From contig CATLAR010000006.1 of the NCBI GenBank assembly GCA_949878495.1, forward strand, positions 1 to 38,944: a stretch of DNA of 38,944 bases. Direction: 5' to 3'. Positions within the stretch are counted from its first letter, which is position 1, and each line of letters begins with the position of its first letter. The notes beneath the pieces are model-generated. The model searched no databases. It was not told the DNA's origin and saw only the letters and a list, made by a program, of their open reading frames with translations. This document shows, one piece after another, positions 4,661-22,784 of this stretch. The translations under genes and the position numbers were made by a program. This DNA is from an uncultured Christensenella sp. Its GTDB lineage: Bacteria; Bacillota; Clostridia; Christensenellales; Borkfalkiaceae.

Positions 4661-6319
4661 ATGGCTAAAATCATAGTAGGTCAGGAGTACGCCAAAGAAT
4701 TCGAGAGTATCTGCGCCCTTTACGGGGGCGGGTTCCTCTCCTCCGACGTACATATAAAAAAGGCGCACGGCTCGGTCATTCAGACCCCGACGCATACATT
4801 CGAGTTCCGCGAAAAGGAGCACGGCGTCAACGGCTCGGGCGAGAACGAGGAACAGACGCTTGCGTTCAACAAGGACGGCGCAAGCTGGTTTTCCGCGCTC
4901 CGCGGCGAGAAGTTCGACAGCGGCAACGCCGATTGGAAACAGCTGATAATGGACGTCGCCGCCGATTATCACAAGCATTATTCGCTTATCGAATTCCGGC
5001 ACACGGCGTCCAAAGCCTCGTACGCCGAAGAACGCCGTCTGCGCGACAGGTTCAAAACGGGTTTTATAGACAGAGTATTCCCCGACGGCGTTTCGTTCAC
5101 GGTAGCCGAAAACAGGCGCACCGCGCCCGAAAATTATTACGCGGTGTCGATGCGCCTTGAAATCAACGGCGGCGGCGAAAGCGCGCCCGTGCTCGGAAAA
5201 CTCTATTTCCGCGACGGCGGCGACGGCAAACTTACCCCCGTATCCGCGCGGGAAGCCGAGCGCGTTCAGGTGTTTATCGAAAGCGCGGTGCCCGCGGAAA
5301 ACGACGTTGAAACCGCGGGGTTTATCGACGTCGCGCTCGTCGGTAAAGTATTCTCGGGGCTTGAAAAAACTTTCAGGGGCGGCAAGTTCGCAGACTATGC
5401 CGCGTTCAACGGCAAGTATAAACGGGAGATTAAAAACCTGCTGGCGCAGCTTGCCACCAGCGAGATAAAGTCCCTCGAATGCACGAACGTAAAAGTGCTC
5501 GGTATTTCGCACGTGGAATGGGAACGCTCGGTTTACGACGTTTATTACCGCGGGCGCAACGTTCTCGAACTCACCGCGGGCGTTAACGGCACGGTATCGC
5601 TGACCTGCTCCAACTGCGGTGAAAACGCCCTTCTCGTCGACGGAAACAGAGTGGTTTTCAAGGACGGCAACGCGGACGTGGAACTCAACTTCGAAAGGGA
5701 CGATCTGGGGCTTACCCCCAAACATATAGCGCAAATACGTGAGTCGGGCGAGATAAACGACCATCTGTTTACGGTGGCTTGCAAAGAAAACCCGAGAAAC
5801 CGCGACTGCACGCGCGTCGTGTGCGCTTCGCAGGCGATAAACGTCGCCGTCGGTATAAATCCCGACGGCTCGGAAATTTACGAGCGCAAATGCCGCGGCT
5901 GCCGTTATCCCGAAATTATCTTCACCGATATTTTTTCGGACGGGGACGGGGTCGGCAAATATACGCCGAGGCTGCAGTTCGCAGCGGATACGCTTTCGCT
6001 CGTCGACGTGCCCACCGTCAGGTGCCGCTGTTGCGGGCGGGAATTTACCGTTTCGGCAATGCCTGCAAATAAAATTTGTCATTTCTGTGCGCGCGACGAC
6101 AAGTCGTCCGCGGCTAAAAAACTTTACAGAAAATACGCGGGAATGCTTTCGCTCGGCGTAAGGCTGGCGCACCTTTTCGCAAAGAAATATTGCAAAGAAG
6201 AGGACAACGTCATTTTGTTCGAGCTGGGGCGCGACTGCTACGTTTTCGATAAGCTCAACTTTAAAGAACGCGGGTTTATCAAAAAGCCCGAAAAGGTTGT
6301 CAGAGGGGTGTTAAGATGA
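4661..6319 (+). CDS. Uncharacterized Cys-rich protein with several zinc-ribbon-like CxxC pairs
   Basis: Long ORF in the operon, overlapping the next gene by 4 nt. CxxC motifs: 'TCSNCGENA', 'RKCRGCRYP', 'VRCRCCGREF', 'KICHFCARDD'. Confidence 0.8.
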   Translation: MAKIIVGQEYAKEFESICALYGGGFLSSDVHIKKAHGSVIQTPTHTFEFREKEHGVNGSGENEEQTLAFNKDGASWFSALRGEKFDSGNADWKQLIMDVAADYHKHYSLIEFRHTASKASYAEERRLRDRFKTGFIDRVFPDGVSFTVAENRRTAPENYYAVSMRLEINGGGESAPVLGKLYFRDGGDGKLTPVSAREAERVQVFIESAVPAENDVETAGFIDVALVGKVFSGLEKTFRGGKFADYAAFNGKYKREIKNLLAQLATSEIKSLECTNVKVLGISHVEWERSVYDVYYRGRNVLELTAGVNGTVSLTCSNCGENALLVDGNRVVFKDGNADVELNFERDDLGLTPKHIAQIRESGEINDHLFTVACKENPRNRDCTRVVCASQAINVAVGINPDGSEIYERKCRGCRYPEIIFTDIFSDGDGVGKYTPRLQFAADTLSLVDVPTVRCRCCGREFTVSAMPANKICHFCARDDKSSAAKKLYRKYAGMLSLGVRLAHLFAKKYCKEEDNVILFELGRDCYVFDKLNFKERGFIKKPEKVVRGVLR

Positions 6320-9300
6320 AGAAAAGCAACAAGATATTCCTTTTAATATGCCTCGGTCTGGCGTTCGCCGTCGATTTTTCGGTTATGGTGTTTTTGCTCG
6401 TCGGCGGCGTTCAGGGGCAGTTCTGGCTGTTCCCCCTGTTTTTCGCGCTGTTCGACGCCGCGTTCATTTTACAGGCTATATTTTCAAACTTCCGCTTTAA
6501 ATATACCGTAGCGGAAATAATTTCTTATCTCGCGCTGTCAATCGTTGCGCTCTGCATAATGCTTTGGGCGGACGTTTTCCCAGGTGGCGAAACGTACTTT
6601 ACCGACGGCGCGGCGGCGCTATGGTTTGTCCTGCATATCGCGGGGTTAATTACTTCGCTTATCTGCTATCTGCGCGCGGCTGACTTTTTAAGGGGAAAAA
6701 TAGGCGCGGCGGTAGCCGCCCTGTTCATTGCGGCTTGCGGTGCGGGCGCGGGCTATTACGGCGTCAGCCTTGCCGCAAACGGCTTTCTTGGCCAGGGTCC
6801 CGAAACTTCGGTGCGTCCGCTTTCCTACGAGTACCTCGAAGAGTCCGACTCGTACGCGGTAAAACGCGTGCTGAACGGCAAGGGTACGAGCGTGACTGTT
6901 CCCGACGAGTTTAACGGCAAAAAAATAACCCGCATTTCTTCTTCTATTTTCTACGACGCGGGTATTACCGACGTAACGCTCGACTGCGCGCCTACGGTTG
7001 AGATCACAGATAATTTCGTCGCGAAAGAGGGCGTTACCATTCACACGCCCCGCGCAAATGCCGACGCGTTCAGAAGAAATTTCTTCGGCGGCAAGTATTA
7101 CTCGCTCGCCAACGCGGTCGCGCCTTACGACCTTGAAAACGACGAGGTTTTCGTGACTTTTTCATATGACGCGGAGGCTTTGGAGTCGGCTGGCGACAAG
7201 TTTTTGCCCACGTATATAGCAAAGAAGGGCACGAGGTTCGACCTCGGTTATTTCAAGGATATTCCCTATGCATTGCGCGCGGACAGACGCTCCGACGAGG
7301 ATCTGTTCTGGTGCTTGTCGTCAAACGGCGGCAAAATGCTTTCACCACTCGTACTTGAAAACGGCGACGGGTTAAACGGCGCGACTCTCAACGAAAACGC
7401 GCCTAAAATCAAAGTCGGGTTCGAGCGCGTTTACAAGGTCTATCCCGTTATGGACGAAATCTCGTCCACGTACGTGAACAACGACAAGAAGTATTTCCTT
7501 GCCGACGAGTTCGAATACTCCGTTGTAAACGGCGCTACTCTCGATTATAAGCTCACCGTTCCTCAATTCGCCGACGAAATCACGTCGAGGATTACCAGAA
7601 ATGGTTTTGATCTAGAATGGTGGTACGCCAACGGCAACCGCACGGCACAGTTTTTGCGTTGCGAATCGCTATCGGCGCTGCTCGAACGCGGACTTACGAC
7701 CGACGGTATTTCGTCAAGCCCCGACTTCGTTACGCTCGCGCCCCATTGGGAAATGGTCGCGCCGGACGTGATTATGACTACCGACTGTGCGGACAACGCC
7801 GTCGTTTACGGTGAAAATATTAACTTCTCCGTTGACGCCGTTTCGCTCGTCGACGGTGCGGTTATGACCTATTATTGGGAGCGCAAGGACAGTTTCGGGC
7901 AGTTCCTTACGATAGACAACAAGACGGACGGCTATTCCAAATATAACTTCCTCGAAAGCGAGGCGGGCACGTATTACTGCACCGTTACGGTGACGGCGGA
8001 CTGTACTTCGCTTTCTTCGAACCGCACCGGCTCGGTTGAAGTCAAACTCAACCCCAGACCTTTAACCGTTGAATGGACTTATCCGCAAAACGACGTTTAC
8101 GACGGCAATTATAAACAGATTACCTGTGAAATCGTCGACGGTGTGATAAACAACGACAACGTAAGCCTTTTTTACAACGAGTCCAACAGAGTAAAATACG
8201 CGGGCAGGCATTATGTTTCCGTAGGGCTTGCCGTGGGCGGCACGGGCAGGTACACTATCGCTAACGAAAGCTCGGTTTCTTTCGAGATTAAAAAAGCGCC
8301 GTTATATATCGCGTTCTCTGAAGTTGAAACCGTTTACAACGGTTACGACCAAGCCCCGGAGTATACCGTGACAGGCGAGGTTGAAACCGACGTCGGCGGC
8401 GTTCGGTTTAACCCCGTTTCCGCCAAAAATTCGGCGGGCGTTTACGATTACGCGCTGGTTATCGGCACGGATACGATATCTTCCTGCTATTACATTGAGG
8501 GTTGTACTTCGCCCGTCGAATGCAGCTTTACGGACAACCGCATAGTAACCAAGTTTACTATCAAACCTTACGGGGTAGACGTCAGCTGGAGCGTGGTGGG
8601 CGTGAATACGGGCACTTCGGACAGATTTACTTACGACGGCAAGTCGCACACGGTAACCGCGACGGCAAAGGGCGTTTCGGGTACTAATATAATTGTAGAC
8701 GTAACCGTTCCCGTAGTCAGAGACGCTGGAGATTACGCGATAACCGCATCCTGCCGCAGTACCAACTACACCGTTAAGAGCGGCGGAGAAAAGACGGTTA
8801 TTATAGATAAAAAGACGGTAACGCCGACTTACGGCAGCCTTAAACTCATTTATAACGGTGGGTTGCAGACTCCCGAAGCGTATGTTTACGGCGTGGGAAC
8901 CGACCCTTCTACCATTCCCGTAAACGGCACGGGCGGCGCGAAGAACGTAGGTACGTATACTTTCACGGCTACGACCCCCGCAAACGCCAATTACGAGCTT
9001 ACGGGTGAAAGCAGCAGACAATTTACTATTGCGCCGTATACCGTGCGTATAAACTGGTCGGATAATTACGTGATTTACGACGGCAAACCGCATTTGCCCA
9101 AAGCCTCCGCGCAGGGGCTTGGCAGCGACGGCGAGCTGTCCTTCAAAGTGGATTTTATTCAGGGCGGTTCGCCCGTAAATTCGGGCAATTATGCCTGCCG
9201 CGGAACTATAATCGACGGCGATAAATATCTTGCGGCAAATTACGTCATAGACGGCAATTACGGCGATTTGTCGCAACTCGTAATCGACAGGGCTACCCTC

Positions 9301-9600
9301 AACGTCAACCCCGACGATTTGGTTATCTCCGCGGGTGAAACCGCGGCAAGCGTGCAACAGCGGCTTACTTACTCCGTGACGGGCTTCGTCAACGGCGAAA
9401 AGCGTGGCGATTTCAATTTCGGTTCGGTTTATATAGAGATCGTCGACGCGCGCGGCGTCGTCATAAGTAACGGCGTTGCGCTCACCGCAGGTACTTATAC
9501 GCTGAGGGCTTGCACCTCTTACGGAAATCACGACCAGCCGCTCGGCGGAAGCAACTACGTGCTGCATTTCGGCACGGGTACGCTTACGGTCAGAGGGTAG
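6316..9600 (+). CDS. Polytopic membrane protein with BspA-LRR-like segment and repeated MBG/bacterial Ig-like ectodomains
   Basis: About five hydrophobic helices in the first ~170 aa, then 'SVTVPDEFNGKKITRISSSIFYDAGITDVTL' (BspA-LRR-like), then repeated units such as 'VYDGNYKQITCEI', 'VYNGYDQAPEYTVTG', 'TYDGKSHTVTATAKGV', 'IYNGGLQTPEAYVYG', 'IYDGKPHLPKASAQG'. Confidence 0.8.
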   Translation: MKKSNKIFLLICLGLAFAVDFSVMVFLLVGGVQGQFWLFPLFFALFDAAFILQAIFSNFRFKYTVAEIISYLALSIVALCIMLWADVFPGGETYFTDGAAALWFVLHIAGLITSLICYLRAADFLRGKIGAAVAALFIAACGAGAGYYGVSLAANGFLGQGPETSVRPLSYEYLEESDSYAVKRVLNGKGTSVTVPDEFNGKKITRISSSIFYDAGITDVTLDCAPTVEITDNFVAKEGVTIHTPRANADAFRRNFFGGKYYSLANAVAPYDLENDEVFVTFSYDAEALESAGDKFLPTYIAKKGTRFDLGYFKDIPYALRADRRSDEDLFWCLSSNGGKMLSPLVLENGDGLNGATLNENAPKIKVGFERVYKVYPVMDEISSTYVNNDKKYFLADEFEYSVVNGATLDYKLTVPQFADEITSRITRNGFDLEWWYANGNRTAQFLRCESLSALLERGLTTDGISSSPDFVTLAPHWEMVAPDVIMTTDCADNAVVYGENINFSVDAVSLVDGAVMTYYWERKDSFGQFLTIDNKTDGYSKYNFLESEAGTYYCTVTVTADCTSLSSNRTGSVEVKLNPRPLTVEWTYPQNDVYDGNYKQITCEIVDGVINNDNVSLFYNESNRVKYAGRHYVSVGLAVGGTGRYTIANESSVSFEIKKAPLYIAFSEVETVYNGYDQAPEYTVTGEVETDVGGVRFNPVSAKNSAGVYDYALVIGTDTISSCYYIEGCTSPVECSFTDNRIVTKFTIKPYGVDVSWSVVGVNTGTSDRFTYDGKSHTVTATAKGVSGTNIIVDVTVPVVRDAGDYAITASCRSTNYTVKSGGEKTVIIDKKTVTPTYGSLKLIYNGGLQTPEAYVYGVGTDPSTIPVNGTGGAKNVGTYTFTATTPANANYELTGESSRQFTIAPYTVRINWSDNYVIYDGKPHLPKASAQGLGSDGELSFKVDFIQGGSPVNSGNYACRGTIIDGDKYLAANYVIDGNYGDLSQLVIDRATLNVNPDDLVISAGETAASVQQRLTYSVTGFVNGEKRGDFNFGSVYIEIVDARGVVISNGVALTAGTYTLRACTSYGNHDQPLGGSNYVLHFGTGTLTVRG

Positions 9601-9728: not shown

Positions 9729-10853
9729 ATGATATGTGAAAAATGTAAAAGATCGTTCGAGCGTCCGCTCGAGCTGTACAACGGCGACTGGGCTTGCCCG
9801 CTATGTCACGAGTCGCTCACGCTTTCCAATATCAGACTCGTCGTCACCGACGAAACGGAAGAGCTTTTTAAAATGTCCGAGGTCTGTTATCTGCGCGCGC
9901 TCAAAACTCCGCCCGCAGACAAAAAGGCGTATTCCGACCTTCTGACAAAAGCCGTAGACTTCTGCAAAGAAGCCGCGCACCGCGGTCACCCCAAGGCGCT
10001 TTTGAGACTTGCATATCTTTATGACGCAGGCTATTTCTCGATAGACGGCTCTGAGGCGTTCAGGCTCGCATACGACTATTACAAAGCCGTATGGAAGGGT
10101 AAAATCAATGATATGCGGGGGTCTAAGGCTAACGCGGACTACTCCGAGGGCGGCATGAAGGTGCGAAAAAGCGCGGCTCGGCTGTACCTCAACCTGCTAA
10201 AAAACGCGCCCCCGAAAATGCGCTCGCTCGACAGATACCGCTACGATTCGGAACTTCGCGCCGTCAAGGACGCGGGGTTGTACGAGTCGGGCGGCGACTC
10301 GGCTTCGTACGGCGTTATCGCGGGCGACAGGGCGGGCAGAATCTGCGAAATTCTCGATTCCTGCTTCTCGAAAGAACACGCGCCGCTGTTTGGGCTTATG
10401 ATGGTAAGTTCCGGGGAGTTTTCCGCGCTTGCCAAAATGACCGAAACTGGCAGAACGGGCGTAAGGAATAAACTTCTGCGCATTGCCGAAAAGGTTGATC
10501 TGTATCTTGTAGACGTGACGCGCGGCGTTCCCAGAGCCGTAAGAAACACCGGCGACCTGGCAGTAGCCGACGGGAATTACTGTCTGTATTTCTTCAACAC
10601 TCAGGGCAAGCACGCGCTGTCGGGCGGCAAAATGAACGCCGTAAGAAAGTCGCTCCAAAGGGGGGATTCGGTGACGGATTTCGCGCGCGTAAACGAGCTT
10701 ATTTCGATAATATCACGGGGGGAAGAGTACTGCGACTACGTATTCGGCGACGATGATATTACCGTGCATAAATCCAAAACCGAGAGCGTGGGACACGCGC
10801 TGGGCGACTTAATCAAAACCGTACAAAAAAACGTTTTACGAGGTGAAGCATAA
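9729..10853 (+). CDS. N-terminal zinc-ribbon protein with weak Sel1/TPR-like helices
   Basis: 'MICEKCKRSFERPLELYNGDWACPLCHES' (CxxC...CxxC), then 'AVDFCKEAAHRGHPKALLRLAYLYDAGYFSIDGSEAFRLAYDYYKAV' (Sel1-like). RBS AAAAGGAG upstream. Confidence 0.75.
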   Translation: MICEKCKRSFERPLELYNGDWACPLCHESLTLSNIRLVVTDETEELFKMSEVCYLRALKTPPADKKAYSDLLTKAVDFCKEAAHRGHPKALLRLAYLYDAGYFSIDGSEAFRLAYDYYKAVWKGKINDMRGSKANADYSEGGMKVRKSAARLYLNLLKNAPPKMRSLDRYRYDSELRAVKDAGLYESGGDSASYGVIAGDRAGRICEILDSCFSKEHAPLFGLMMVSSGEFSALAKMTETGRTGVRNKLLRIAEKVDLYLVDVTRGVPRAVRNTGDLAVADGNYCLYFFNTQGKHALSGGKMNAVRKSLQRGDSVTDFARVNELISIISRGEEYCDYVFGDDDITVHKSKTESVGHALGDLIKTVQKNVLRGEA

Positions 10854-12328
10854 TGAACGAAAAAATCGAGAGAATAATCGCGGCGTGTACGCGTAACGGC
10901 GTGCCGCTCAATAAAAACTTCAACGTTACGTACCTTTCCACTCACGGCTATTACGAGGGACCGCAACAGCTTGCGGGCAAGGCTCTCGACGATCTGGACA
11001 GACTGTGCCGCCTCGGTATTAACGCGGGGTTCGACAGCCAGCTCAAATCTGCGATAGATAAGCTGTCGGATATGGTAATAGGACTTACAAACGTTAAACA
11101 GGGCGACGTGCGCGAGCTTGCCAAAGCCGACGGACAGCGCAACAAAATATTGGAGAACGTGCGCGAGGCGAGCTATCCAAGCCTCGACGTAACCAAGACG
11201 GTAAGTATGTACGTTGCAACTTCGGTCGAGGCGATAGACACCATAATATCGCTGTCGAGCGAGGACGAGATTTTCTCGACCGTAGACAAAAGGCAGATAG
11301 AATATCTCAATCAAAGCAAACAGAAGCTCGGCGAGATAAACGCCGCGCTGTTCAAGGTTATGGAAACGGGCAGCGTTGCGGCGAAAGCCAACGCCGAGCG
11401 CGCGTGCGAGCTTATCCGCAAATGGCGGCTGGACTGCTCGCGGTTTATGTGCACTTCGCGTTCGGTCGGCTATCTCGACGACGCGATAGAAGTAATCAAC
11501 GAATGGGGCAAACAGTTCGTCGCGCCTCTAAAGCGCGACAAGGCAAAGGAATTGCCTGTGTTTATCCGCGATGAAATGTCGATAATCGCAGACAGCCGCG
11601 CTGGACTGGAAACGCTTAGCGTGTTTAACGCGAGAATAGAGGCTCGCCGTCAGGAACTTGATAAACAGCAGAGCGAAATAGATAAGGAAAGACAGACCTG
11701 CGAAGGCTTGAAAGCGCAGCTTTCCGCGCTCGAAAACAGAAAAAAAGAGATTGCCCGCGAGCTAATGAACACGGGCGACAAGAACAAGGCTAACCGTGAC
11801 GTGGCGGAAGTAAGGCGGCAGTCGGACGCGCTCGAAGCCGATATCAAGGCGATAGAGGGCAACGGCAGGCTCGCCAAAAAGGAAAAGGATTTACGCAACC
11901 GCAGAAACGTTACCGTTTCCATTAAGCATATCTGCGATATGCTCACGGACAACAAGAGCGACCTCGTGTTCCTTGCCAAAGTATTACAGCATGTTGATTT
12001 CAACTCGCTCGTAGGCGTTATGACGGGCAGAACGGGGGATCTGGAAGAGGCTTCCAACAGCATTGCGCAAATCCGCGTGCGTGTGGAAAACCTCTACAAC
12101 GCGTACGTTATCACGGGCACGGGGCTTGAAGAGGACCAGCGCGCCGTCGACAGCGTAATGCTCGACGAAATGATTTACGAGGAGCAGCCGCAGACCGAGC
12201 TTAACGCCGAGGGCGTGGACGCGGAGCTTGCCGAGCTTATGAAAGCTATGGAAAGCGGCGAAGAGAAAGAGGAAGAAACGCGCGAGGCAGTGCGCAGGAT
12301 AGTACCCCTCGGCGACGACGATAAATAA
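10853..12328 (+). CDS. Coiled-coil protein with acidic amphipathic C-terminal tail
   Basis: Starts at the stop of the preceding gene (TAATG). Long heptad-like region 'IEARRQELDKQQSEIDKERQTCEGLKAQLSALENRKKEIARELMN'. C-terminal 'EGVDAELAELMKAMESGEEKEEETREAVRRIVPLGDDDK'. Confidence 0.8.
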   Translation: MNEKIERIIAACTRNGVPLNKNFNVTYLSTHGYYEGPQQLAGKALDDLDRLCRLGINAGFDSQLKSAIDKLSDMVIGLTNVKQGDVRELAKADGQRNKILENVREASYPSLDVTKTVSMYVATSVEAIDTIISLSSEDEIFSTVDKRQIEYLNQSKQKLGEINAALFKVMETGSVAAKANAERACELIRKWRLDCSRFMCTSRSVGYLDDAIEVINEWGKQFVAPLKRDKAKELPVFIRDEMSIIADSRAGLETLSVFNARIEARRQELDKQQSEIDKERQTCEGLKAQLSALENRKKEIARELMNTGDKNKANRDVAEVRRQSDALEADIKAIEGNGRLAKKEKDLRNRRNVTVSIKHICDMLTDNKSDLVFLAKVLQHVDFNSLVGVMTGRTGDLEEASNSIAQIRVRVENLYNAYVITGTGLEEDQRAVDSVMLDEMIYEEQPQTELNAEGVDAELAELMKAMESGEEKEEETREAVRRIVPLGDDDK

Positions 12329-14238
12329 TGGCATTCAAGGACGATTTAGAGAGAATCAACACTCTCTATTACAATTCGACGGCTGTTGCGGAGCTTAAAA
12401 AGGGGCTGGACGAGCTGGATAAAATGCTGTCGGGCGGGTGGCTTAACGCCGCCAACAGCGAGAACGCCGAAGCGCTCTATTGCCGCATTTTCGTCAAAAT
12501 AAAGTTGTTGAAGTATCTTTCGGGGTATTCCGACGGCGAGCGCGGGGAGCTGGAAGAATATATTCTTTCGGAGTACCGTAACGCCGAAAAAAAGGGTTAT
12601 AAAAAGACCTGCGCCGTTATGGACGGCGCGAAAACGCTTATAAAGTTCGTGCACGGCGTAGTTTCGTTTGTCGCCGATGCGGACGAAACGCTGAGAGCGG
12701 GCGTTACGGGCGCGCAGTGCGACGCGGTTATCTCCAGCCTCGAAGCTATGAAGGGCGACGTCGAACGCGCGGAGATAACTTCACCGTTCGGCGACGGCGT
12801 AAAGTTTACCGACGTAAAAGAGGGGCTTATCCGTCGGCTTGAGGGGGGCATTTCCGCCGCCCAAAGGCGCAAGAGCGAGGAGCGCGCGGGCAAGGTAGGG
12901 CATTTTCTAAGAAAAATTTCCGACAAATACCTGCTTTACGAATATTATCCGTTGCCCGACTACGACGAAGGCGGCGGCAAGTACACCTGCGTGGTGTGCA
13001 CGCCGTTTATCGAAGAGGCGCGCCTTTACGCCGCCCGCGCGGTTGCCGACGGCGTTGCCGTTTACGAGGCCGACGCGACGGTTTTTGAGGGCTATACCGA
13101 CGATTACGTCGCCGACTTTTTTAACCACGTAACCGAGCTGAAAGCGGGGCTTATACTCACCAACGCCGAAAAGCTGGGCGAAGGTAAGAAAAAACTGCTG
13201 TATAGGGGCGCAATGCTCGCGGGTAAGCGGGGCGTGAACGTGTTCATTCACGATGACGACGGCGACGGCAGGGAATACGAAAAATGCGTTGAATATTCCG
13301 CCGACGACGGGCGGCTAAGCCCTCGCGACGTGGGAATAAGCTATATTTCTATGCCCTATTTCAAGGACGTGTGCGCCGAGTTCGAGGCAAAGGGACTCAT
13401 AGCCGGCGGCGCGGACTACGACGGGCTGAAAGAAATGGCGTTTATGGGCTTTATCGGGCTTAATCGGGTAGTCGCCGACTTTATCGCGGGCGCGGATTGG
13501 CGCAAGACGGGCAAAAAACTTTCTGCGGCGAACACCGCGGCGGCGCGTAGATACCTGCAAACGCTGAAAAATTCTTACCTTTTCATAGACTCGGGCTGGG
13601 GCGATTTCTCGTCGTGCATTATCAAAAAGGAACGCACGCACGAGGGATTCGACTACGACGGCGTGAGGGATATAGACCTTGAAAACGTGCGAAAGATAGT
13701 AGAAAGCGAGCATTCCGTTTTCGCAAAATGCGGAATGATAGCGCGCTACTGCACGCTCGGCGGCGGTGACAAGACCGATTGGGAGCTGGTCCCCCGCGAG
13801 GAAATGCTCAGCCGCGTTACGCTGGCGACAAGGCTCGTTTTCCGCATAATGCGGGTGGAAACTTCGCCCGAGGTGGAAATCCTCGACGCGCTCGACAACC
13901 CCACTGCGGGCGGGCTGTGCTGTAATAACGGCAAACTTATTCAATACAAATCCGACTGCTGTAAGAATTGGAGCTGGATGGTGGACGCAATCGTTCACGA
14001 AAGTTTCCACGCGTTGCAGGCTAAACTTCGCCTGGGCGGGTGGTCGGAATGGTATTACGAGCAGATGGGCATTACGCGCGGCAGGGTGGAAAGGTGGACT
14101 TTCACCAACAATATTTACGACGGAAACACGAGTTCCAAACTTTACAAAGTGCACATCGTCGAAGCCGACGCGCGCGCGTTCGAAATCGACTGCGACGACG
14201 GGCGCAACTACGCCTGGAACACGATAGATTTTAATTAA
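12328..14238 (+). CDS. Uncharacterized protein with C-terminal zincin-like metallopeptidase motif (HExxH)
   Basis: 'VDAIVHESFHALQAKL' (HESFH, nt ~13996-14010), followed by 'HIVEADARAFEIDCDDG', a possible third-ligand Glu (ExxxA/EAxxF-type). Start overlaps the preceding stop. Confidence 0.75.
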   Translation: MAFKDDLERINTLYYNSTAVAELKKGLDELDKMLSGGWLNAANSENAEALYCRIFVKIKLLKYLSGYSDGERGELEEYILSEYRNAEKKGYKKTCAVMDGAKTLIKFVHGVVSFVADADETLRAGVTGAQCDAVISSLEAMKGDVERAEITSPFGDGVKFTDVKEGLIRRLEGGISAAQRRKSEERAGKVGHFLRKISDKYLLYEYYPLPDYDEGGGKYTCVVCTPFIEEARLYAARAVADGVAVYEADATVFEGYTDDYVADFFNHVTELKAGLILTNAEKLGEGKKKLLYRGAMLAGKRGVNVFIHDDDGDGREYEKCVEYSADDGRLSPRDVGISYISMPYFKDVCAEFEAKGLIAGGADYDGLKEMAFMGFIGLNRVVADFIAGADWRKTGKKLSAANTAAARRYLQTLKNSYLFIDSGWGDFSSCIIKKERTHEGFDYDGVRDIDLENVRKIVESEHSVFAKCGMIARYCTLGGGDKTDWELVPREEMLSRVTLATRLVFRIMRVETSPEVEILDALDNPTAGGLCCNNGKLIQYKSDCCKNWSWMVDAIVHESFHALQAKLRLGGWSEWYYEQMGITRGRVERWTFTNNIYDGNTSSKLYKVHIVEADARAFEIDCDDGRNYAWNTIDFN

Positions 14239-14252
14239 AGAGGGGAAAAGTT

Positions 14253-17200
14253 ATGGCGGATTATCTCGACGGGTTTATAAAGGAGCTTTTGCATCTTGAC
14301 GACGTCCGCACCAACAGACTTATAGACGCGGGTAGCGACGGCGACAAAATCAAAGGCTACCGTCTGTCGTCGGAGGGCGGGCTTTCGTGCGCGAAAATGC
14401 TCTGCGCTATAAAAAACGGCGTGGGCAAAGTCAGCAACCGCACCGTGCTGAAAGACAGCGCGCTCGTGCGCACGAACGTGGATAATCCCGCGGTGGAAAA
14501 GTGGCTTTGGCGCGACCTTTCGGGGTCGAGCGATCCCAAAGCTCTAGACGCGTTTATTACCGACGCGTATAAAGCGCTCAATTTAAAGGGCAACAACCCG
14601 CTGTTTCTGGGGCTTGGCGCGCTCGAATGGGAAGTCGCCGTGTCCGACGAGATTAAAAAGGTCTGCTCGCCCCTTCTGATATTCCCCATTAAACTCATAC
14701 GCGGCACCGCAACGAGTTCGGTGGAAATCGAGTTCGTCGACGACGACGCATATTTCAACCCCTGTCTTATCGAAAGACTCAAAAGGGATATGACGGGCTA
14801 CGTTTCGGGTAACTTCCCCTCGCCCAACGGCGGAACGGACTTCGACGAGCCGATAGACCTTGATAAACTCGATTTAAGTTATTTCGACAAGGTCGACGCG
14901 CACGTTAAAGAATGCGCCGAGGGCGCGGGCGGCGCGTTCGCGTTCAACCGCGACGCGCTTATTATAGCGCAATACAGCCACGCCGACGTTTGTATGTACT
15001 ACGACGTTCGCCGCAACCGCGAAAAGATAGACTCGCACCCCCTTATCCGCAGGATATTCGGGGAGAAAGTCGACCTTCCGCCCGTGGACGAGAGCGCGGG
15101 TGAACCGCGTTTCGTTCTGCCCAAAGACAGCGTTCAGGAGGACATTATCCGCAGGATAGTACGGGGGCAATCGCTCATCGTCAAGGGACCTCCGGGCACT
15201 GGTAAAACGCTGACAATCGCAAATATAATCGCCGCTCTGCTTGCCAGAGGGAAGAAGGTTATTTTCGCTTCGAAAAAGCTTTCCGCGCTTGCAGAGGTCA
15301 ACGCAAAACTGCCCGAAAATTTAAGAAAGTTCGTAATGCTTCTGGACTACGAAACCGAGCAGAAAGCCGCGGCGGTAAACCCCGCCGACGTGAAGCGTTC
15401 GTTTAAAGCGCTTGTAAAAGAGCGTTCGGAATACCATTTCGACGGCGCGGCTTCAAGCGGCTACGAAAAGGCGGTGCGTGACTGCGCGGACGCCGTTCTG
15501 GAAATAAACGAATATTTCAAGGACGTTTTCGCAAGCGGCTATTACGACGTTATCGACTCATATTACAAGAGCAACCTGCCCGCCTTGCCTTTCGCAACTT
15601 CCGACGAGGTCGCAAAGGTGTCCGCGAGCGAGTACAACGGGCTTCTGAGCGAGGTCGAGGACGCGGGCAAGTTCTGGAATATAATGACCGACGGCAAAGG
15701 CGGAATCGCGGAATGTCCGTGGTTCGGAGTCGGAGATTTAAAGGATACCGAGGGCGCGTTAGCCCTTAACTCCGCCATATGCGGGGGTATAAGCAAAATA
15801 AATGCCGCTTTGCAAGAACTTGGACTCGACGAAGCGGACGAGCTTCGGCTGGGCGATCTGTATCTGACGGCGGGCGGGAACGTGCTTTCGCGCACAGACG
15901 TCGAAAAACTGCTTGCGGCCAAACTGCCAGTAGATTACGCGGAAATTACCAAAGTTCTCAACGCGTACGAAGAGCGCGCCGAAAACGCGCCCGCGGGGTT
16001 TGCGTTCAAAGACGGCGGCGCGGCTTGTTTTAACGATTTAGCCGTCGCAGCGGAAGAATTGAAAAAATACGGCGGGGATACGCCGCTCACCAACGGGCGG
16101 ATAAAATTGCTCGGCGACCACGCGTATTTGTTTTTCGTCAACGGCGAGCCGTATACTTCGCTGCAGTTTGAAAGACTTTGCGAGTTGGTGAAGAGCGTTC
16201 GGGAATACGAGGATAAGGCGAAAGAGCGCGAGTTCGATTGTCTTGCCATGCTCGATAAACTCGAAAGCGGAGACTACGCCGAGGCGCTTAAAACCTATGC
16301 GAGAATTTCGCCCTACGCTTCAAACGGCAAAAAGAAAATAGGCTTTTTCGACTTCAAGGGCAAAAAGGCATATAAATATCTGCTTACCAAAACTTCCCGC
16401 AGAGAGCCAAAACTCAAGGATATTGCGGGGGCAATCGTCGCTTTAAGGGACTTCGAGGATAACGCGGAAGAAGCGCGCGTGATAAAAGGGTTTATCGGGC
16501 GCGTCTTAGGAGGCAGAATGCTTACCGACGACGAGCTTGCCTGCGCTTATTTCGTGGCGGATACCTGCCGCGAAAAAGCCGACGCGTTCGGTTTCGTGGG
16601 CGCGGCAACGAAAGCCTGTTCCGTACTCAAACTTTGCGCGGAAGAATGCTCTACTCCGCATTCGTTCACCGTTGACGAGCTTTTAAAAAGCCGCGAAGTT
16701 TACCTTCTGCGCGCCGAGCTTAAACGACTCGTCGAGAGCATTTGCCAAAGCGCGCAAATTTCGGATTCGGGCGACGAAATAGTCGCCGCCAGATCGTTCG
16801 CAACCGTTTTACGCGCAAAGGGTTTGAAGCCCTTCAAAAACCAAACCGAAAAGCTTGTCGAATACTTCGAAAAAATAAAAGAGCTCGGCGCGGCGTTCGC
16901 CGAAGAAACGGGGCTTTGCGCAAAGAAAATGCGCACTTTCGGCGTGACTTATTTCGAAAGCGTTTACACCGTAAACCCTTGGAAAGTGACCGTGGCGGGA
17001 CTTAAACGCTTTGCCTCGCAAGCCGAAAACCGCGCCGTTTTAAGCGCGGCGGCGGGCTACCATAAGATTACCGCGGATAATTCCGTGCTTTCTCTCGCCG
17101 TCTTTTTCGCTTACCTTGAAAAGGGCGAAGTATTCGTGGAAAGCGGCAGATTCGGGGAGCTGTTCGAGCATTCGTTCAGCAAATTGACCCTTGACTATGC

Positions 17201-18755
17201 TTTAACGAGGCTGGGTAAACGCCGCAACGGACTTGGTAAAAACGCCCAGCTTGCCCTCGACAAATTCGAGCGCGCGGAGGGCGAAATGCTCAAATGCAAC
17301 GCCGGTTTAATCGAAAATCTGTGTATGTCGAGAATAGACGCCGACGACCCCGATTTCGCGTTCCTTAACGCCGACCGCGGCGCGCCGCGGTCGCTTAGGT
17401 ATCTGTTCAAAACTCAGGCGGAGGCAATCGTCAAGCTCAAACGCTGTTTCATTTTATCTCCGTCCACGGCGAGCGTTCTGTTCCGACCCGAGGCGTTCTC
17501 GGACTTCGACGTCGTTATCGTGGACGAGGCGAGCCAGCTCGAACCCGTAAATCTTCTGTCCGTGCTCGTGCGCGCAAAACAATGCGTGCTCGTCGGCGAC
17601 GAGTTCCAGATGCCGCCGCTCACTCATTTCAAAGTCAAAAACAAGGGCAGGATAGACGATATCGACAGCGAGCTCGCGCTCGACAGCGATATATCGGCGC
17701 TCAGCCTCGCACTGCATAACGAGGCGTTCGAGTCCCGCGAGCTTTTGTGCCATTACCGAAGCAACACCGAGGCGCTGATAGCGTTCTCGCAGCGCGAATT
17801 TTATCCGTATATGCGCACCTTCCCCGCGGCTTTGCCCTTTGCGGACGGGCTGGGGTTCGAGGACGTGTATACGCCCGAGGGTTGCAGCGAGGGCGGCGTG
17901 AACGAAACAGAAGCGCAAAAAGCCGTTGAAAAACTTGCCGAACACTTTGAAAAGTATTATAATGAGGATACGGGCGTGCTTTCGCGCTCGGTCGGCGTTG
18001 TTGCTTTCGGCGAAGCCCAGCTTGCCAAAATAACTTCGCTCGTTCAGAAAAACGCCGCGCTTAACGCGAAAATCGAACGCGCGATAGAAAAATTCGACGA
18101 CCTGCCCGAAAAACTCGTCTTTTTCAGGACGATAGAAAGCGTTCAGGGACAGGAAACCGACCATCTCATTTTGTCGATAACTTACGGGCGCGACAAAAAC
18201 GGCAACGTCCGCCTTATTTTCGGCGAACTCAACCGCGACGCTCTCGGCAAAAATATCTTCAACGTAGCGGTAACTCGCGCGCAGAGCTTCGTTACGGTTA
18301 TACACTCGCTCACCGCCGAGCAGATTTCGGCTAACGCGCGGATAAAGTTCATAGGCGACTATCTCGCGCTCGTCAGAAAGTATTCCGACGGCGGGCGCGA
18401 CAGATTCCTGTCCACCCTTCCCGAAAAGGGCGCGAACTTTATTTCAAGCGTTTGCGACTATCTCGCCGAATGCGGAATCACGCGCGAGCGCATCGTCGTA
18501 GGTTACGGCGTGACGGACGGATCCGTCAAAATTCCCGTCGCGGTGCTTTCGAAGGACCTGACCCGTGCCGAACTGGGTATCTGGTGCGAAACGCCCGTGC
18601 TCAAAAAGTACGATTATCTCGACTATAACGTCCGTTACGTGCGCTCGCTTATCGGCCGCGGCTGGAATATTTACAGAATTTCCGCGCACGAGTGGTACGA
18701 CAACGGCAAGTTCGAGAAAGACGGGCTGAAAAAAGTAATTTCAAAACTCATTTAA
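14253..18755 (+). CDS. Large SF1 (Upf1/Dna2-like) helicase with DUF4011-like N-terminus and degenerate Vsr/REase-like C-terminus
   Basis: Motif I 'QSLIVKGPPGTGKTLTIANIIAALLARGKKVIFASKK', motif II 'DVVIVDEASQLEPVNLL', motif III 'CVLVGDEFQMPPLT', 'ESVQGQETDHLILSITYG', motif VI 'NVAVTRAQSFVTVIHS'. About 780 aa between motifs I and II. N-terminal 'NPLFLGLGALEWEVA...SPLLIFPIKLIR'. C-terminal 'LIGRGWNIYRISAHEWYDN'. Confidence 0.88.
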   Translation: MADYLDGFIKELLHLDDVRTNRLIDAGSDGDKIKGYRLSSEGGLSCAKMLCAIKNGVGKVSNRTVLKDSALVRTNVDNPAVEKWLWRDLSGSSDPKALDAFITDAYKALNLKGNNPLFLGLGALEWEVAVSDEIKKVCSPLLIFPIKLIRGTATSSVEIEFVDDDAYFNPCLIERLKRDMTGYVSGNFPSPNGGTDFDEPIDLDKLDLSYFDKVDAHVKECAEGAGGAFAFNRDALIIAQYSHADVCMYYDVRRNREKIDSHPLIRRIFGEKVDLPPVDESAGEPRFVLPKDSVQEDIIRRIVRGQSLIVKGPPGTGKTLTIANIIAALLARGKKVIFASKKLSALAEVNAKLPENLRKFVMLLDYETEQKAAAVNPADVKRSFKALVKERSEYHFDGAASSGYEKAVRDCADAVLEINEYFKDVFASGYYDVIDSYYKSNLPALPFATSDEVAKVSASEYNGLLSEVEDAGKFWNIMTDGKGGIAECPWFGVGDLKDTEGALALNSAICGGISKINAALQELGLDEADELRLGDLYLTAGGNVLSRTDVEKLLAAKLPVDYAEITKVLNAYEERAENAPAGFAFKDGGAACFNDLAVAAEELKKYGGDTPLTNGRIKLLGDHAYLFFVNGEPYTSLQFERLCELVKSVREYEDKAKEREFDCLAMLDKLESGDYAEALKTYARISPYASNGKKKIGFFDFKGKKAYKYLLTKTSRREPKLKDIAGAIVALRDFEDNAEEARVIKGFIGRVLGGRMLTDDELACAYFVADTCREKADAFGFVGAATKACSVLKLCAEECSTPHSFTVDELLKSREVYLLRAELKRLVESICQSAQISDSGDEIVAARSFATVLRAKGLKPFKNQTEKLVEYFEKIKELGAAFAEETGLCAKKMRTFGVTYFESVYTVNPWKVTVAGLKRFASQAENRAVLSAAAGYHKITADNSVLSLAVFFAYLEKGEVFVESGRFGELFEHSFSKLTLDYALTRLGKRRNGLGKNAQLALDKFERAEGEMLKCNAGLIENLCMSRIDADDPDFAFLNADRGAPRSLRYLFKTQAEAIVKLKRCFILSPSTASVLFRPEAFSDFDVVIVDEASQLEPVNLLSVLVRAKQCVLVGDEFQMPPLTHFKVKNKGRIDDIDSELALDSDISALSLALHNEAFESRELLCHYRSNTEALIAFSQREFYPYMRTFPAALPFADGLGFEDVYTPEGCSEGGVNETEAQKAVEKLAEHFEKYYNEDTGVLSRSVGVVAFGEAQLAKITSLVQKNAALNAKIERAIEKFDDLPEKLVFFRTIESVQGQETDHLILSITYGRDKNGNVRLIFGELNRDALGKNIFNVAVTRAQSFVTVIHSLTAEQISANARIKFIGDYLALVRKYSDGGRDRFLSTLPEKGANFISSVCDYLAECGITRERIVVGYGVTDGSVKIPVAVLSKDLTRAELGIWCETPVLKKYDYLDYNVRYVRSLIGRGWNIYRISAHEWYDNGKFEKDGLKKVISKLI

Positions 18756-18767
18756 GGAGAGAATATA

Positions 18768-19532
18768 ATGCCAAGCAACGAAGTAAAACAGATTGACCCC
18801 TTCGACAAGGAAGAAAAAGCCGTCAAGGAACAGCTTGACAAAATCACCAAGGCGAGGGAACAGCAGAGGTACGAAAAATCCGTAGAGGATTCCAAAAGGA
18901 ACTTCAAGGCGAAAAAGGATAAGCTCGCCGACCGCGCAGCCGACTTTTTGCTTAAATACGGCAAGGACGATTACCGCACGCAGATAATGATAACCTTCCT
19001 TGACGTGGCGTTGCAGATGGAGGACGCAATCAACCTCACCCACGATATGGGAATGGCTATGGGCTGTATAACCGAAGCTATCGGGTGTATGGACGATATT
19101 CTCAAGATAAACGGCTTGCAGATACAGAGCACGCTCGCCGTCAACTACGGTTTCTTTGCGCGTTGGAAGCGTAAACGCGAACTTAACAAGGCCGTGAGAA
19201 ACAACGCGGGCAGAATGAAACAGATTTGCGATACGCTTGTCGGTAATCAGGAAATGGCTCAGGCAATCGTCAATTCGCTGAGGAAATCGAGCGTGAAAAT
19301 GCAGAATATGATGCAGAAGAACGCCGAAAAACAGCGCAAAATCGAGAAAAAAGTCAACCCTGCCGCCGCGGGTAAACCGTCCGCCGCGGAATCTATGGTT
19401 ACGGAGCTTGCGCGTTCCCGCGCTGGCGAAGATGCTTCGGGCGGAAGCGTAAACGGCGGAGTTACGGGCGGTACTACCGCGCCCGACGCGCCCGCAAGCG
19501 GCTCGGGCACCGTAGATATAAGCGATATTTAA
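18768..19532 (+). CDS. Basic all-helical coiled-coil protein, candidate ESCRT-III/Snf7-like substrate of the adjacent Vps4-like ATPase
   Basis: 254 aa, Lys/Arg/Glu-rich helices, central Met/Gly/Ala-rich 'MEDAINLTHDMGMAMGCITEAIGCMDDILKINGLQIQSTL', low-complexity Gly/Ala/Pro tail. Immediately upstream of the AAA gene. ORF is certain; ESCRT-III assignment is tentative. Confidence 0.5.
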   Translation: MPSNEVKQIDPFDKEEKAVKEQLDKITKAREQQRYEKSVEDSKRNFKAKKDKLADRAADFLLKYGKDDYRTQIMITFLDVALQMEDAINLTHDMGMAMGCITEAIGCMDDILKINGLQIQSTLAVNYGFFARWKRKRELNKAVRNNAGRMKQICDTLVGNQEMAQAIVNSLRKSSVKMQNMMQKNAEKQRKIEKKVNPAAAGKPSAAESMVTELARSRAGEDASGGSVNGGVTGGTTAPDAPASGSGTVDISDI

Positions 19533-19544
19533 CGGGGGTGGGAT

Positions 19545-20699
19545 ATGTCCGGTTTCGGAAAAAAAGGACCTTCTAATCCCGACGGACAGTCGGTTGAAGA
19601 GCTTGAAAAACAGTACGCGGCGACGGTAGATAAAATCCGCGCCATACTCGCGGGCAGAAAGGACAAGCGCGATTTGAGCAACGCGGACAAGTCCAAACTG
19701 CGCACGGAGTATTTGCGCGCGTCGCAGCTCGCGCAAAAACTTTCCACCCGACACACCGATAACGACAAGGTGGAAAAGTACAAGCAGGACGCCGTAAAAC
19801 TGTCCGCCCGAGCAACGGAGTACGGCTCGGCGATAAACAGCAAAATACCCTCAACGACGTTCGACGACGTGAAGGGACTTGACGAAGTAAAGAAAATAGT
19901 CAAAAGTTTTATTTTCATTGCACAGAACCCCGAAATTATAAAGCATTATAAGATCGAGGGCGGGCTGGGAATGCTTATGTACGGCGCTCCCGGCACGGGT
20001 AAAACGATGTTTGCGGAAGCCATTGCAAACGCTCTGCGGCTGCCCCTTTTCGTCGTTACCCCCGCGGATATATTCAAATCTTACGTGGGTGAGTCGGAAG
20101 CGGCGGTACGCCAGATTTTCGACGAAATCGACGCTTGCCCCGACGGCGCGATACTTTTCGTAGACGAATGCGAGTCTATTTTTTCGCGGCGCACGAGCGA
20201 CACCAAGGACTATAAAGCGGCGGTCACGACCGAGCTTTTACAGCGCATTAACGGCTTCGGCGTAAACGGCAGTAAGCGAATAATAATCGCGGCGACCAAC
20301 CGTCCCGACGTAATCGACCCCGCGTACCTGCGTTTCAAGAGATTTTCGCACCGCGTGCACGTCACGCCGCCCGACCTGAACGCCAAACGCGCGATTATCG
20401 AGAGCAAGCTCAAGGGCATAGAACTTTCGGGAATTACCACCGAAGAAATTCTGGAAATGACGGAAAATTATACGGCGGCAAAAATGCCTATCGGCACCGT
20501 CAGCGTGAAAACGGCGTACTATTCGGCGGCGGATATATGCGGAATAATAGAGGAAACGTGCCGTCTTGCGCTTGAAAAAATACAGGAAGCGCAGTCGAAA
20601 ATCCCCATTCCGCTTACGCGGGAAATGTTTGAAACTTCGTTCAAAAAACTCAGGCCGAGCATCAGCGCGGAGCTTCTCAAAGAATACAACGACTTTTAA
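19545..20699 (+). CDS. Vps4/katanin-like classical AAA+ ATPase with MIT-like N-terminal helical region
   Basis: Walker A 'MYGAPGTGKTMFAEAIA', pore loop 'FKSYVGESEAAVRQIF', Walker B 'AILFVDECES', sensor 1 'IIIAATNRPDVIDPAYLRFKRF', sensor 2 region 'YSAADICGIIEETCRLAL', C-terminal 'EMFETSFKKLRPSISAELLKEYNDF' typical of the Vps4/katanin/Cdc48 clade. The N-terminal ~90 aa is predicted helical by eye. Confidence 0.82.
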   Translation: MSGFGKKGPSNPDGQSVEELEKQYAATVDKIRAILAGRKDKRDLSNADKSKLRTEYLRASQLAQKLSTRHTDNDKVEKYKQDAVKLSARATEYGSAINSKIPSTTFDDVKGLDEVKKIVKSFIFIAQNPEIIKHYKIEGGLGMLMYGAPGTGKTMFAEAIANALRLPLFVVTPADIFKSYVGESEAAVRQIFDEIDACPDGAILFVDECESIFSRRTSDTKDYKAAVTTELLQRINGFGVNGSKRIIIAATNRPDVIDPAYLRFKRFSHRVHVTPPDLNAKRAIIESKLKGIELSGITTEEILEMTENYTAAKMPIGTVSVKTAYYSAADICGIIEETCRLALEKIQEAQSKIPIPLTREMFETSFKKLRPSISAELLKEYNDF

Positions 20700-20755: not shown

Positions 20756-21673
20756 TTAAAGCGTGTTTCTGAAACCCTTGCCGAGTATCTCGTTCGTGTC
20801 CGTAAGGATAACGAACGCGGCGGGGTCTACGCTATGAATCTTTATTTTAAGCCGCAACGCTTCCGCGCGGTTGCAGACGATAAGCATTATCGTCTTATCT
20901 TCGCCCGTGTACCCGCCCTGCGCGGTAAACGACGTATAACTTCGGTGCATACCGTCAATTATATACGGCGCGATAAGTTCGGGGTTGGAAGTTATAATCG
21001 TAACGTATTTACTCTTGCCAATGCTCTCTATAACGCTGTCGATAAGGAACGCTTTGAAGAAGAGTCCGAGTATCGAATAAAGACCCGTCCGCAAATCGAA
21101 AATGAAGAACGTTGACGAAGCGATTATAAGGTCGGTGGCGAACAGCGCTTTTCCTATGTCCATTTTCGTGTATTTTTTGACTATCAGCGCGACTATGTCC
21201 GTCCCGCCCGAGCTTGCGTTGCAGTTGAAGAGTATCGCCGCGCCTATGCCCGTCAAAAGCATTGCATACAAAAATTCAAGAAATTTTTCGTCCGTAAGCG
21301 GCAAAGTTACGCCCGTTACGCGCATTATCTGCTCTATAATCCACATTTCAAACGTGTACATAAGCGAGCAATACGCCGTCTTGAAAGTACAGCCTTTGCC
21401 AAGGAAAATAAAGCCTATTAATATCAGCAGCGCGTTGAGAATCATCATTATGACCGACTGAGTCATAAACGCTATATGCGGCGTTATGTAATTCGAAAGA
21501 ATAATCGCAATGCCGCTCACGCCGCCCGTGGCGAAGTTATTGGGGCCCTTGAAGAAGAATACCCCGAACGCGATCATAAGAACGCCGAAATTGAGTATGA
21601 TCCAATGCAGGATTGTACTCTTTATTTTTTTGCGCTTTTCCTGCGGTGTAAGTTGTTCTTTCGTCTTTTTCAT
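20756..21673 (-). CDS. YitT family membrane protein (DUF161 + DUF2179)
   Basis: 'LNFGVLMIAFGVFFFKGPNNFATGGVSGIAIILSNYI', 'NCNASSGGTDIVALIVKKYTKMDIGKAL', C-terminal DUF2179-like 'VTIITSNPELIAPYIIDGMHRSYTSFTAQGGYTGEDKTIMLIVCNRAEALRLK'. Confidence 0.9.
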   Translation of the reverse strand: MKKTKEQLTPQEKRKKIKSTILHWIILNFGVLMIAFGVFFFKGPNNFATGGVSGIAIILSNYITPHIAFMTQSVIMMILNALLILIGFIFLGKGCTFKTAYCSLMYTFEMWIIEQIMRVTGVTLPLTDEKFLEFLYAMLLTGIGAAILFNCNASSGGTDIVALIVKKYTKMDIGKALFATDLIIASSTFFIFDLRTGLYSILGLFFKAFLIDSVIESIGKSKYVTIITSNPELIAPYIIDGMHRSYTSFTAQGGYTGEDKTIMLIVCNRAEALRLKIKIHSVDPAAFVILTDTNEILGKGFRNTL

Positions 21674-21710
21674 AATTTTCCCAAAATAGCCGAGATTCCC
21701 GTAAGAACTC

Positions 21711-22784
21711 TTATATCGTTCCGCCGAAGCCTTTGCCCAGAATTTCGTTTGCGTCGGTAATTATCACAAACGCCTCGGGGTCGATTTCGCGTATCTTGAT
21801 TTTGAGTTTAAGCGCCTCGTTGCGTTTGCAAACGGTAACCATAACTTTTTTCTTTTCGCCCGTGTACCCGCCTTCCGCGTCGTACATCGTAAAGCCGTGG
21901 TTTATGACCTTTAATATGTAGTCGGATATAACTTCGTAATGCCGCGTTATTATCGTTATGTATTTGGTTTTACTGATGCTCTCTATCACGCCGTCGAGAA
22001 GGAAGGACTTCGTGAACAGACCCAGCATCGAGAACAGCGCCGACGACACCGTAAACGTATAGAAAGATATGAGCACTATAATCATATCGATAAGCATTAA
22101 CGCCATTCCTACGTTCAGCGAGGTGTATTTTTTGAGTATGAGCGCGATAATATCGGTGCCGCCCGAGCTTGCGCCGCAGTTGAATATAAGCGCGCCGCCC
22201 ACTCCGAACAGCAGTATCGCGTAAACGAGTTCGAGCAACGGCTGTCCGCCCGTCCATTGCGCAACGCCGTCGATTCTTACGATTTCGCCCGCAGGGTCCA
22301 GCACCCATTCGGCAGTCAACGGTTTTTCAAGAGGGCACACGACTTCAAGCAGGTAAATAATTCCCGTATACGCCAGCGAGCAGAAAATAGTGCGGATAGT
22401 GCATTGCTTGCCCAGAACTATAAGCCCGATGACAAGCAGCAATACGTTTATAATCGCCATTATCACGCCTTGCGAGAAAATTTCCGCAACAGCCTTGGGT
22501 AAAAAGCTGTTTATGATAATAGCCACGCCCGCAATGCCGCCGAGCGTGAGATTGTTGGGCGTCTGGAAGAAATAAACGCTGCACGACATCATAATGATGC
22601 CCACTACGAGCAGCGTCCACCTTAGAACGGTGCGCTGTCTTTTCTGTTTTACGGTGAGTATTTTGTCGCCGTAAACTTTCGGCTTTTCAGCCTGCGTTTC
22701 GGCAGTTTCTCCGCCTTCCGCGGGGGGGATTTCCGTTTCGCTTACGGAATTGTTTTCTTCGTTTTGAATGATCTCTTTGTTCAT
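21711..22784 (-). CDS. YitT family membrane protein (DUF161 + DUF2179), paralog of neighbour
   Basis: 'NCGASSGGTDIIALILKKYTSLNVGMAL', 'ITIITRHYEVISDYILKVINHGFTMYDAEGGYTGEKKKVMVTVCKRNEALKLKIKIREIDPEAFVIITDANEILGKGF', closely similar to the adjacent gene. Confidence 0.9.
   Translation of the reverse strand: MNKEIIQNEENNSVSETEIPPAEGGETAETQAEKPKVYGDKILTVKQKRQRTVLRWTLLVVGIIMMSCSVYFFQTPNNLTLGGIAGVAIIINSFLPKAVAEIFSQGVIMAIINVLLLVIGLIVLGKQCTIRTIFCSLAYTGIIYLLEVVCPLEKPLTAEWVLDPAGEIVRIDGVAQWTGGQPLLELVYAILLFGVGGALIFNCGASSGGTDIIALILKKYTSLNVGMALMLIDMIIVLISFYTFTVSSALFSMLGLFTKSFLLDGVIESISKTKYITIITRHYEVISDYILKVINHGFTMYDAEGGYTGEKKKVMVTVCKRNEALKLKIKIREIDPEAFVIITDANEILGKGFGGTI

Follow-up and report, generated by a model that had tools for sequence, protein, structure and literature searches.

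ESCRT-III/Vps4 systems (including archaeal CdvB/CdvC) set an AAA ATPase with a three-helix N-domain beside a hairpin protein that carries a flexible linker and a C-terminal motif, the two genes being adjacent. Bacterial VPS4-like AAAs and PspA/Snf7-AAA neighbourhoods were described by Ravi et al. 2024 (PMC11237479), where the partner is PspA, a Snf7 protein bearing a TM segment, or a TPR-6TM protein. DUF4011 helicases are represented by the anti-phage families ProA (NF058533) and Hhe (NF042953) and by PADLOC PDC-S37, which have the domain order DUF4011, SF1 helicase and MTES_1575. In IetAS, a defence system, an AAA ATPase is combined with a serine protease, and PMC7159879 describes systems of a zincin with FxSxx-COOH peptides. 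The locus reported here defines a conserved, multi-gene accessory system of gut Clostridia, in which a nuclease-decayed DUF4011 helicase is coupled both to a zincin and to an AAA motor that has its own tail-tagged partner protein. PMC11237479, PMC10936438 and PMC7159879 deal with systems other than this operon, and no earlier description of it was found in the literature on ProA, on DUF4011 with a protease or on bacterial ESCRT operons.

The window, that is, the whole stretch of DNA analysed, spans 38,944 nt of a contig (CATLAR010000006.1) from an uncultured Christensenella sp. The last two genes of the conserved six-gene operon are:

18768-19532, + strand: S254, a helical partner protein of 254 aa (ORF with AAGGAG upstream; 31 aligned homologues)
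19545-20699, + strand: a classic AAA+ ATPase of 384 aa, below called the AAA (Pfam AAA 2.8e-32; TIGR01243 CDC48 1.8e-60)

A sequence-only reading had taken these two ORFs, which are separated by 12 nt, for a bacterial ESCRT-III-like/Vps4-like pair. Both ORFs exist as it gave them, and that they form a real pair is borne out: S254 lies directly upstream of the AAA, in the same gene order, in all 32 homologous loci that have enough upstream DNA to be testable, a count that omits L044 and L050, whose contigs begin at the AAA. Since the homologues are adjacent and in the same order wherever the contig permits a check, this obligate pairing is more than chance.

The conserved gene order is Zn-ribbon/Sel1 protein, coiled coil, zincin, DUF4011 helicase, S254 and AAA, with variable genes downstream. 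The four genes that precede S254 share its strand, neighbours overlapping or being spaced by no more than 14 nt, and the upstream part of the window is laid out as follows:

1760-4627, + strand: SNF2-like helicase, a possible further operon extension (Pfam Helicase_C and SNF2; a homologue with 59% identity occupies the corresponding position in L062)
4661-9600, + strand: probable operon extension, comprising a Zn-ribbon protein (4661-6319) and a membrane protein with repeats (6316-9600), the genes of which also precede the operon in L062 and L170
9729-10853, + strand: Zn-ribbon and Sel1-repeat protein, 374 aa (Sel1 in 6 of 17 members; N-terminal CxxC...CxxC)
10853-12328, + strand: coiled-coil protein B491, 491 aa (20 homologues; a conserved, acidic, L[ST]xDDK-like C-terminus of its own)
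12328-14238, + strand: zincin metalloprotease C636, 636 aa (HExxH at 13996-14010)
14253-18755, + strand: DUF4011 SF1 helicase, 1500 aa (below-cut-off NCBIfam matches, antiphage_ProA 1.9e-110 and Hhe 2.6e-80; PADLOC PDC-S37 2.3e-113)
18438-18734, + strand: decayed MTES_1575 nuclease domain of the helicase (alignment of 30 homologues)

The membrane protein of the probable extension has 1094 aa, with N-terminal TM segments followed by repeated, beta-rich units. Upstream of the SNF2-like helicase, at 75-1580, lies a 501-aa ORF without a Pfam match, in which a GGPVETYGL-like stretch is reminiscent of the actin/Hsp70 fold. At the other end, two adjoining paralogues of YitT-like membrane proteins (20756-22784, - strand) are convergent with the operon.

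The helicase retains DUF4011, and its SF1 motifs are intact in 30 homologues. It has the domain order of ProA, Hhe and PDC-S37 but scores far below the family cut-offs (370 of 1500 bits for ProA and 270 of 2000 bits for Hhe), and the nuclease residues have been lost: the canonical IDLA...GIECDG, seen in an archaeal Halalkalicoccus homologue, is changed to IP[IV]A...G[IVL]xCE in nearly all of the 30. As these include the acidic nuclease residues, the MTES_1575 domain is probably inactive. A conserved [IVL]xCE motif now stands in their place in this helicase family. The other five conserved genes of the operon also set it apart from known DUF4011 systems, being absent from the annotated DUF4011 neighbourhoods that were looked at. 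Another large DUF4011 system was seen on the Aristaeella lactis plasmid NZ_CP069422.1 (L119:11713-29472), where a DUF4011 protein lies beside Ser/Thr kinases, a phosphatase, an FHA protein and an AAA ATPase. C636 is regarded as a zincin metalloprotease because of its invariant HExxH and a conserved glutamate downstream (H557, E558, H561 and E612 are invariant in the alignment); weak SprT-like Pfam matches were found in 4 of 21 members.

The AAA alignment, when used to scan 84,980 species genomes, recovered 34 loci at 60-74% identity, below which identity fell sharply to about 32%, representing other AAA families; a scan with S254 alone as query found nothing. The hosts are mostly MAGs of gut Clostridia (Borkfalkia, Alloclostridium, Limadaptatus, Protoclostridium and others), together with three of Bacilli or Acholeplasmatales. 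Distribution is patchy, with occurrences in three further genomes among 60 relatives and, for S254, in 23 of the 396 genomes of the window's order, while samples of the wider class and phylum gave no convincing further S254 match. Two copies of the AAA from the same genus are 69% and 66% identical to that of the window, no closer than a copy from another family (70%), which suggests horizontal spread. The operon looks mobile, and searches for carriage of the pair by phages or plasmids found nothing close, S254 having been sought in plasmids and the AAA in both phages and viral contigs. L062 is without the zincin and helicase and keeps the Sel1 protein, the coiled coil, S254 and the AAA, so that the S254/AAA pair is a stable core, while the divergent L169 keeps the zincin, the helicase, an S254-like protein and the AAA. 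In one genome (G269:C10:44439-45649; L026, L029) two S254-like copies occur in tandem.

Within the AAA lie the following features:

20076-20096, + strand: pore loop 1, KSYVGES (KSYVG invariant in four aligned homologues)
19593-19826, + strand: N-terminal three-helix bundle, residues 17-94, of MIT-like predicted fold (AlphaFold2 pLDDT 78.5; MIT enrichment in Foldseek)

The ATPase motifs are intact: the Walker A GAPGTGKT, the Walker B VDE, the sensor-1 N and two arginines are invariant in the alignment. The two motifs that had been cited for the Vps4/katanin clade, KSYVGES at residues 178-184 and RPSISAELLKEYNDF at the C-terminus, are both present, but taken alone they do not point to Vps4. The pore loop has Y where yeast Vps4, human Vps4 and archaeal CdvC carry W (the yeast Vps4 reference sequence was confirmed against PDB chains), and the C-terminal motif is found in Cdc48-type ATPases too. 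Cdc48-type proteins are in fact the best matches of the ATPase core, CdvC being second among the NCBIfam models, although the AAA differs from classic Cdc48/VCP-type proteins in having a single AAA domain and no double-psi barrel N-domain. Pfam Vps4_C stayed below its cut-off (18.5 against 21.3 bits), and, when read against yeast Vps4, the AAA has no counterpart to about 40 residues of the beta-domain insert between ALEKIQ and PLTREMFE. This insert is missing from archaeal CdvC as well.

The AAA family is a single clade in two trees (100/100 and 100/99), apart from IetA. A joint clade with Vps4 was neither recovered nor rejected (p-AU 0.35), one with Vps4 and the bacterial MIT-AAAs was likewise not rejected (p-AU 0.56), and the trees give the family no firm place relative to Vps4, VCP, FtsH or the bacterial MIT-AAAs. 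In PADLOC the AAA is matched best by IetA (4.5e-35), and, as in IetAS, an AAA and a protease share the operon. Membership of the IetA family was ruled out by the 100/100 separation and by N-domains that have no detectable relation, and the protease here is a zincin, not a subtilisin.

For the N-domain, AlphaFold2 predicts helices at residues 17-35, 46-69 and 73-94, the last of which contains VEKYKQDAVKLSARATEYG, a segment that had been likened to MIT helix 3. When the model was compared with the PDB by Foldseek, 10 of the 50 top-ranking chains, from 8 entries, were MIT domains (yeast Vps4, CdvC, MITD1, spastin, calpain-7 and mouse MIT), each with an E of about 1. TM values on the target range from about 0.45 to 0.77 (0.72 for Vps4 9bl8, 0.76 for Vps4 4niq and 0.77 for CdvC 2w2u), with rmsd of 2.3-2.9 A for the best. 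A query with yeast MIT recovers about 20 of the 177,635 distinct PDB sequences, and because MIT domains are such a small fraction of the database, their over-representation is striking, yet E values are near 1 and three-helix bundles are common. MIT (PF04212) is absent from the Pfam families listed for 28 AAA N-domains, and profile-profile comparison with MIT gave a probability of at most 0.5%, against 48-57% in the positive control, in which the MIT-like domains of other Clostridial AAAs were compared with Vps4/CdvC MIT. The proposal of an MIT-type N-domain has partial support from the predicted fold and none from sequence profiles.

In S254 the following parts are distinguished:

18798-19133, + strand: predicted helical hairpin, with helices at residues 11-64 and 69-122 (AlphaFold2, pLDDT about 75-93)
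19431-19511, + strand: variable linker rich in Gly, Ala, Ser and Thr, predicted to be disordered (pLDDT <50; 45-93% G/A/S/P/T/N across the family)
19512-19529, + strand: conserved C-terminal tail VDISDI (in the family, [D/G/N]I[S/D]DI[L/I/V])

The model consists of two 54-residue helices folded as a hairpin, followed by weakly predicted helices and a disordered tail; its mean pLDDT is 68, and confidence is confined to the hairpin. The firmest trait of S254 is its tail, which is near-invariant, [IVFL][DSG]D[ILV] occurring near the end in 29 of 31 homologues, behind a linker that varies freely. L054 falls outside this pattern with YDDIL, and in the divergent L169 the tail (GDDIL) is kept although the core is barely recognisable (S254 profile E 7e-4). 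A Pup-like reading of the tail was raised by two weak Pfam matches and dropped.

Between hairpin and linker, residues 123-195 carry a net charge of +13 and a conserved GFFARxKRKR...RNN stretch. This, and the placement of its gene right after that of the helicase at almost every locus, could mean that S254 is a basic adaptor that binds nucleic acid and links the helicase with the AAA; the ATPase would then recycle nucleoprotein complexes, and neither polymers nor membrane remodelling would be involved. Such a role is unlikely, as S254 is kept in L062, which has no helicase, and basic amphipathic helices are also found in membrane-binding proteins.

B491 and S254 both combine a variable linker with a conserved C-terminal motif, that of B491 being acidic, and hence the reader of these tails may not be the AAA. 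One candidate is the zincin of the same operon with its invariant HExxH, which might process or bind both tails in the manner of the FxSxx-COOH peptide systems. We consider this improbable, given that L062 is without the protease gene, yet both the AAA and the tail of S254 (DDISDIL) persist there.

The claim of an ESCRT-type partner was supported in part. The long predicted hairpin, the flexible linker and the C-terminal motif of S254 are the expected layout, but neither Snf7 (PF03357) nor PspA_IM30 (PF04012) is among the Pfam families listed for its 31 members. Searches of PDB sequences with profiles of S254 and of the N-domain found nothing beyond chance coiled-coil matches, no Snf7 match was found in the window's own genome, and PspA itself was rejected as the partner of the AAA, there being no PspA in 61 related genomes. 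Foldseek with the S254 model gave 47 weak matches (E of 1.7 or more), many of them to long-helix proteins. Vipp1, IST1-CHMP1B and CHMP2A-CHMP3 are in this list, though for those to ESCRT-III E is at least 2.8 and rmsd >15 A. Profile-profile comparison of S254 with a bacterial ESCRT-III-like set gave a probability of 5.9%, no better than the 8.3% obtained with an unrelated coiled coil of the same operon as control; because Snf7 against PspA itself reached only about 7% in this test (the reference Snf7 sequence was confirmed against PDB chains for residues 1-150, PspA for residues 1-145), the small profiles leave room for distant homology. The I[SD]DIL tail has neither a MIM1 nor a MIM2 consensus, and no partner described by Ravi et al. 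2024 (PMC11237479) matches S254, although both share the notion of a bacterial AAA whose partner is of the PspA/Snf7 type or replaces it.

The genetic setting is also not of a membrane type: neither an SPFH protein nor a membrane partner adjoins it, and its context of DUF4011 helicase and zincin is of the defence type. A true, divergent ESCRT-III/Vps4 pair, with S254 as polymer former and an MIT-Vps4 AAA, co-opted into a defence operon for membrane remodelling, would account for the two predicted folds, the tail, the weak fold matches and the unrejected joint clade. It is nonetheless a doubtful explanation, as MIT, Snf7 and PspA are undetected at the sequence level, the beta-domain insert is missing, and the real ESCRT-like loci of the same order (below) look different. 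Only a little less doubtful is a related scheme in which a machine of the ESCRT-III/Vps4 kind, either far diverged or of separate evolutionary origin, works within a defence-type operon, S254 polymers being recruited and disassembled by the MIT-fold AAA through a new C-terminal motif and coupled to the DUF4011 helicase and zincin. Overall, the ESCRT reading of the pair is partly supported, and shared ancestry with ESCRT could not be shown.

The explanation that we prefer, and to which we would give an even chance, is that S254 and the AAA are a dedicated substrate or adaptor and its motor, within an accessory and probably anti-invader operon. It draws on the constant pairing, the core retained in L062, the near-invariant tail, the conserved catalytic and pore residues and the MIT-like fold matches. 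The AAA hexamer would bind the S254 tail by its three-helix N-domain, pull S254 into the pore and so remodel or disassemble assemblies that contain it. The helicase may act on nucleic acid that is foreign or aberrant, scaffolding could be the task of the Sel1 and coiled-coil proteins, and the zincin is the most likely effector. That the operon is probably a defence-type system is argued from homology and distribution, since the helicase is kin to the anti-phage ProA and Hhe families and the operon is patchily distributed. In operation the pair may be analogous to ESCRT-III/Vps4 or to the tail-tagged substrates of other AAA unfoldases, a likeness that is distinct from membership of the ESCRT family, which was not shown. 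If the motor does read the S254 tail through its MIT-like domain, this would be a bacterial parallel to the recycling of ESCRT-III by Vps4, and one that could be tested with two small proteins and a six-residue peptide.

Among the nearest non-family matches of the AAA scan were three Clostridial loci (L064, L065 and L067), from which a fourth, L163, was found in the same order as the window. In all of these, AAAs with MIT-like N-termini adjoin helical proteins of 198-226 aa. L064:6684-10855 (OMYT01000039.1) and L065:7631-10867 (CADAHU010000027.1) encode a 226-aa, Snf7-like protein with a MIM1-like C-terminus, followed by two AAAs with MIT-like N-termini; the L064 protein matches Snf7 over its full length (E 0.054), and Pfam MIT is found below its cut-off (E 0.005-0.008) in the second AAA of each. 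In L163:5684-13415 (G174:C2) and L067:7665-10810 (Anaerocaecibacter muris; Pumilibacteraceae), the genes in a row are those of an SPFH/Zn-ribbon protein, of one or two helical proteins resembling ESCRT-III and of an MIT-like AAA; two of the four loci carry an SPFH protein. The four have the look of genuine ESCRT-III/MIT-Vps4 operons of bacteria and illustrate the form that such a system takes in this group; the pair in the window clearly differs from them. Their ESCRT-III-like proteins end in MIM1-like C-termini such as DDTDERLRRMMQELKS.
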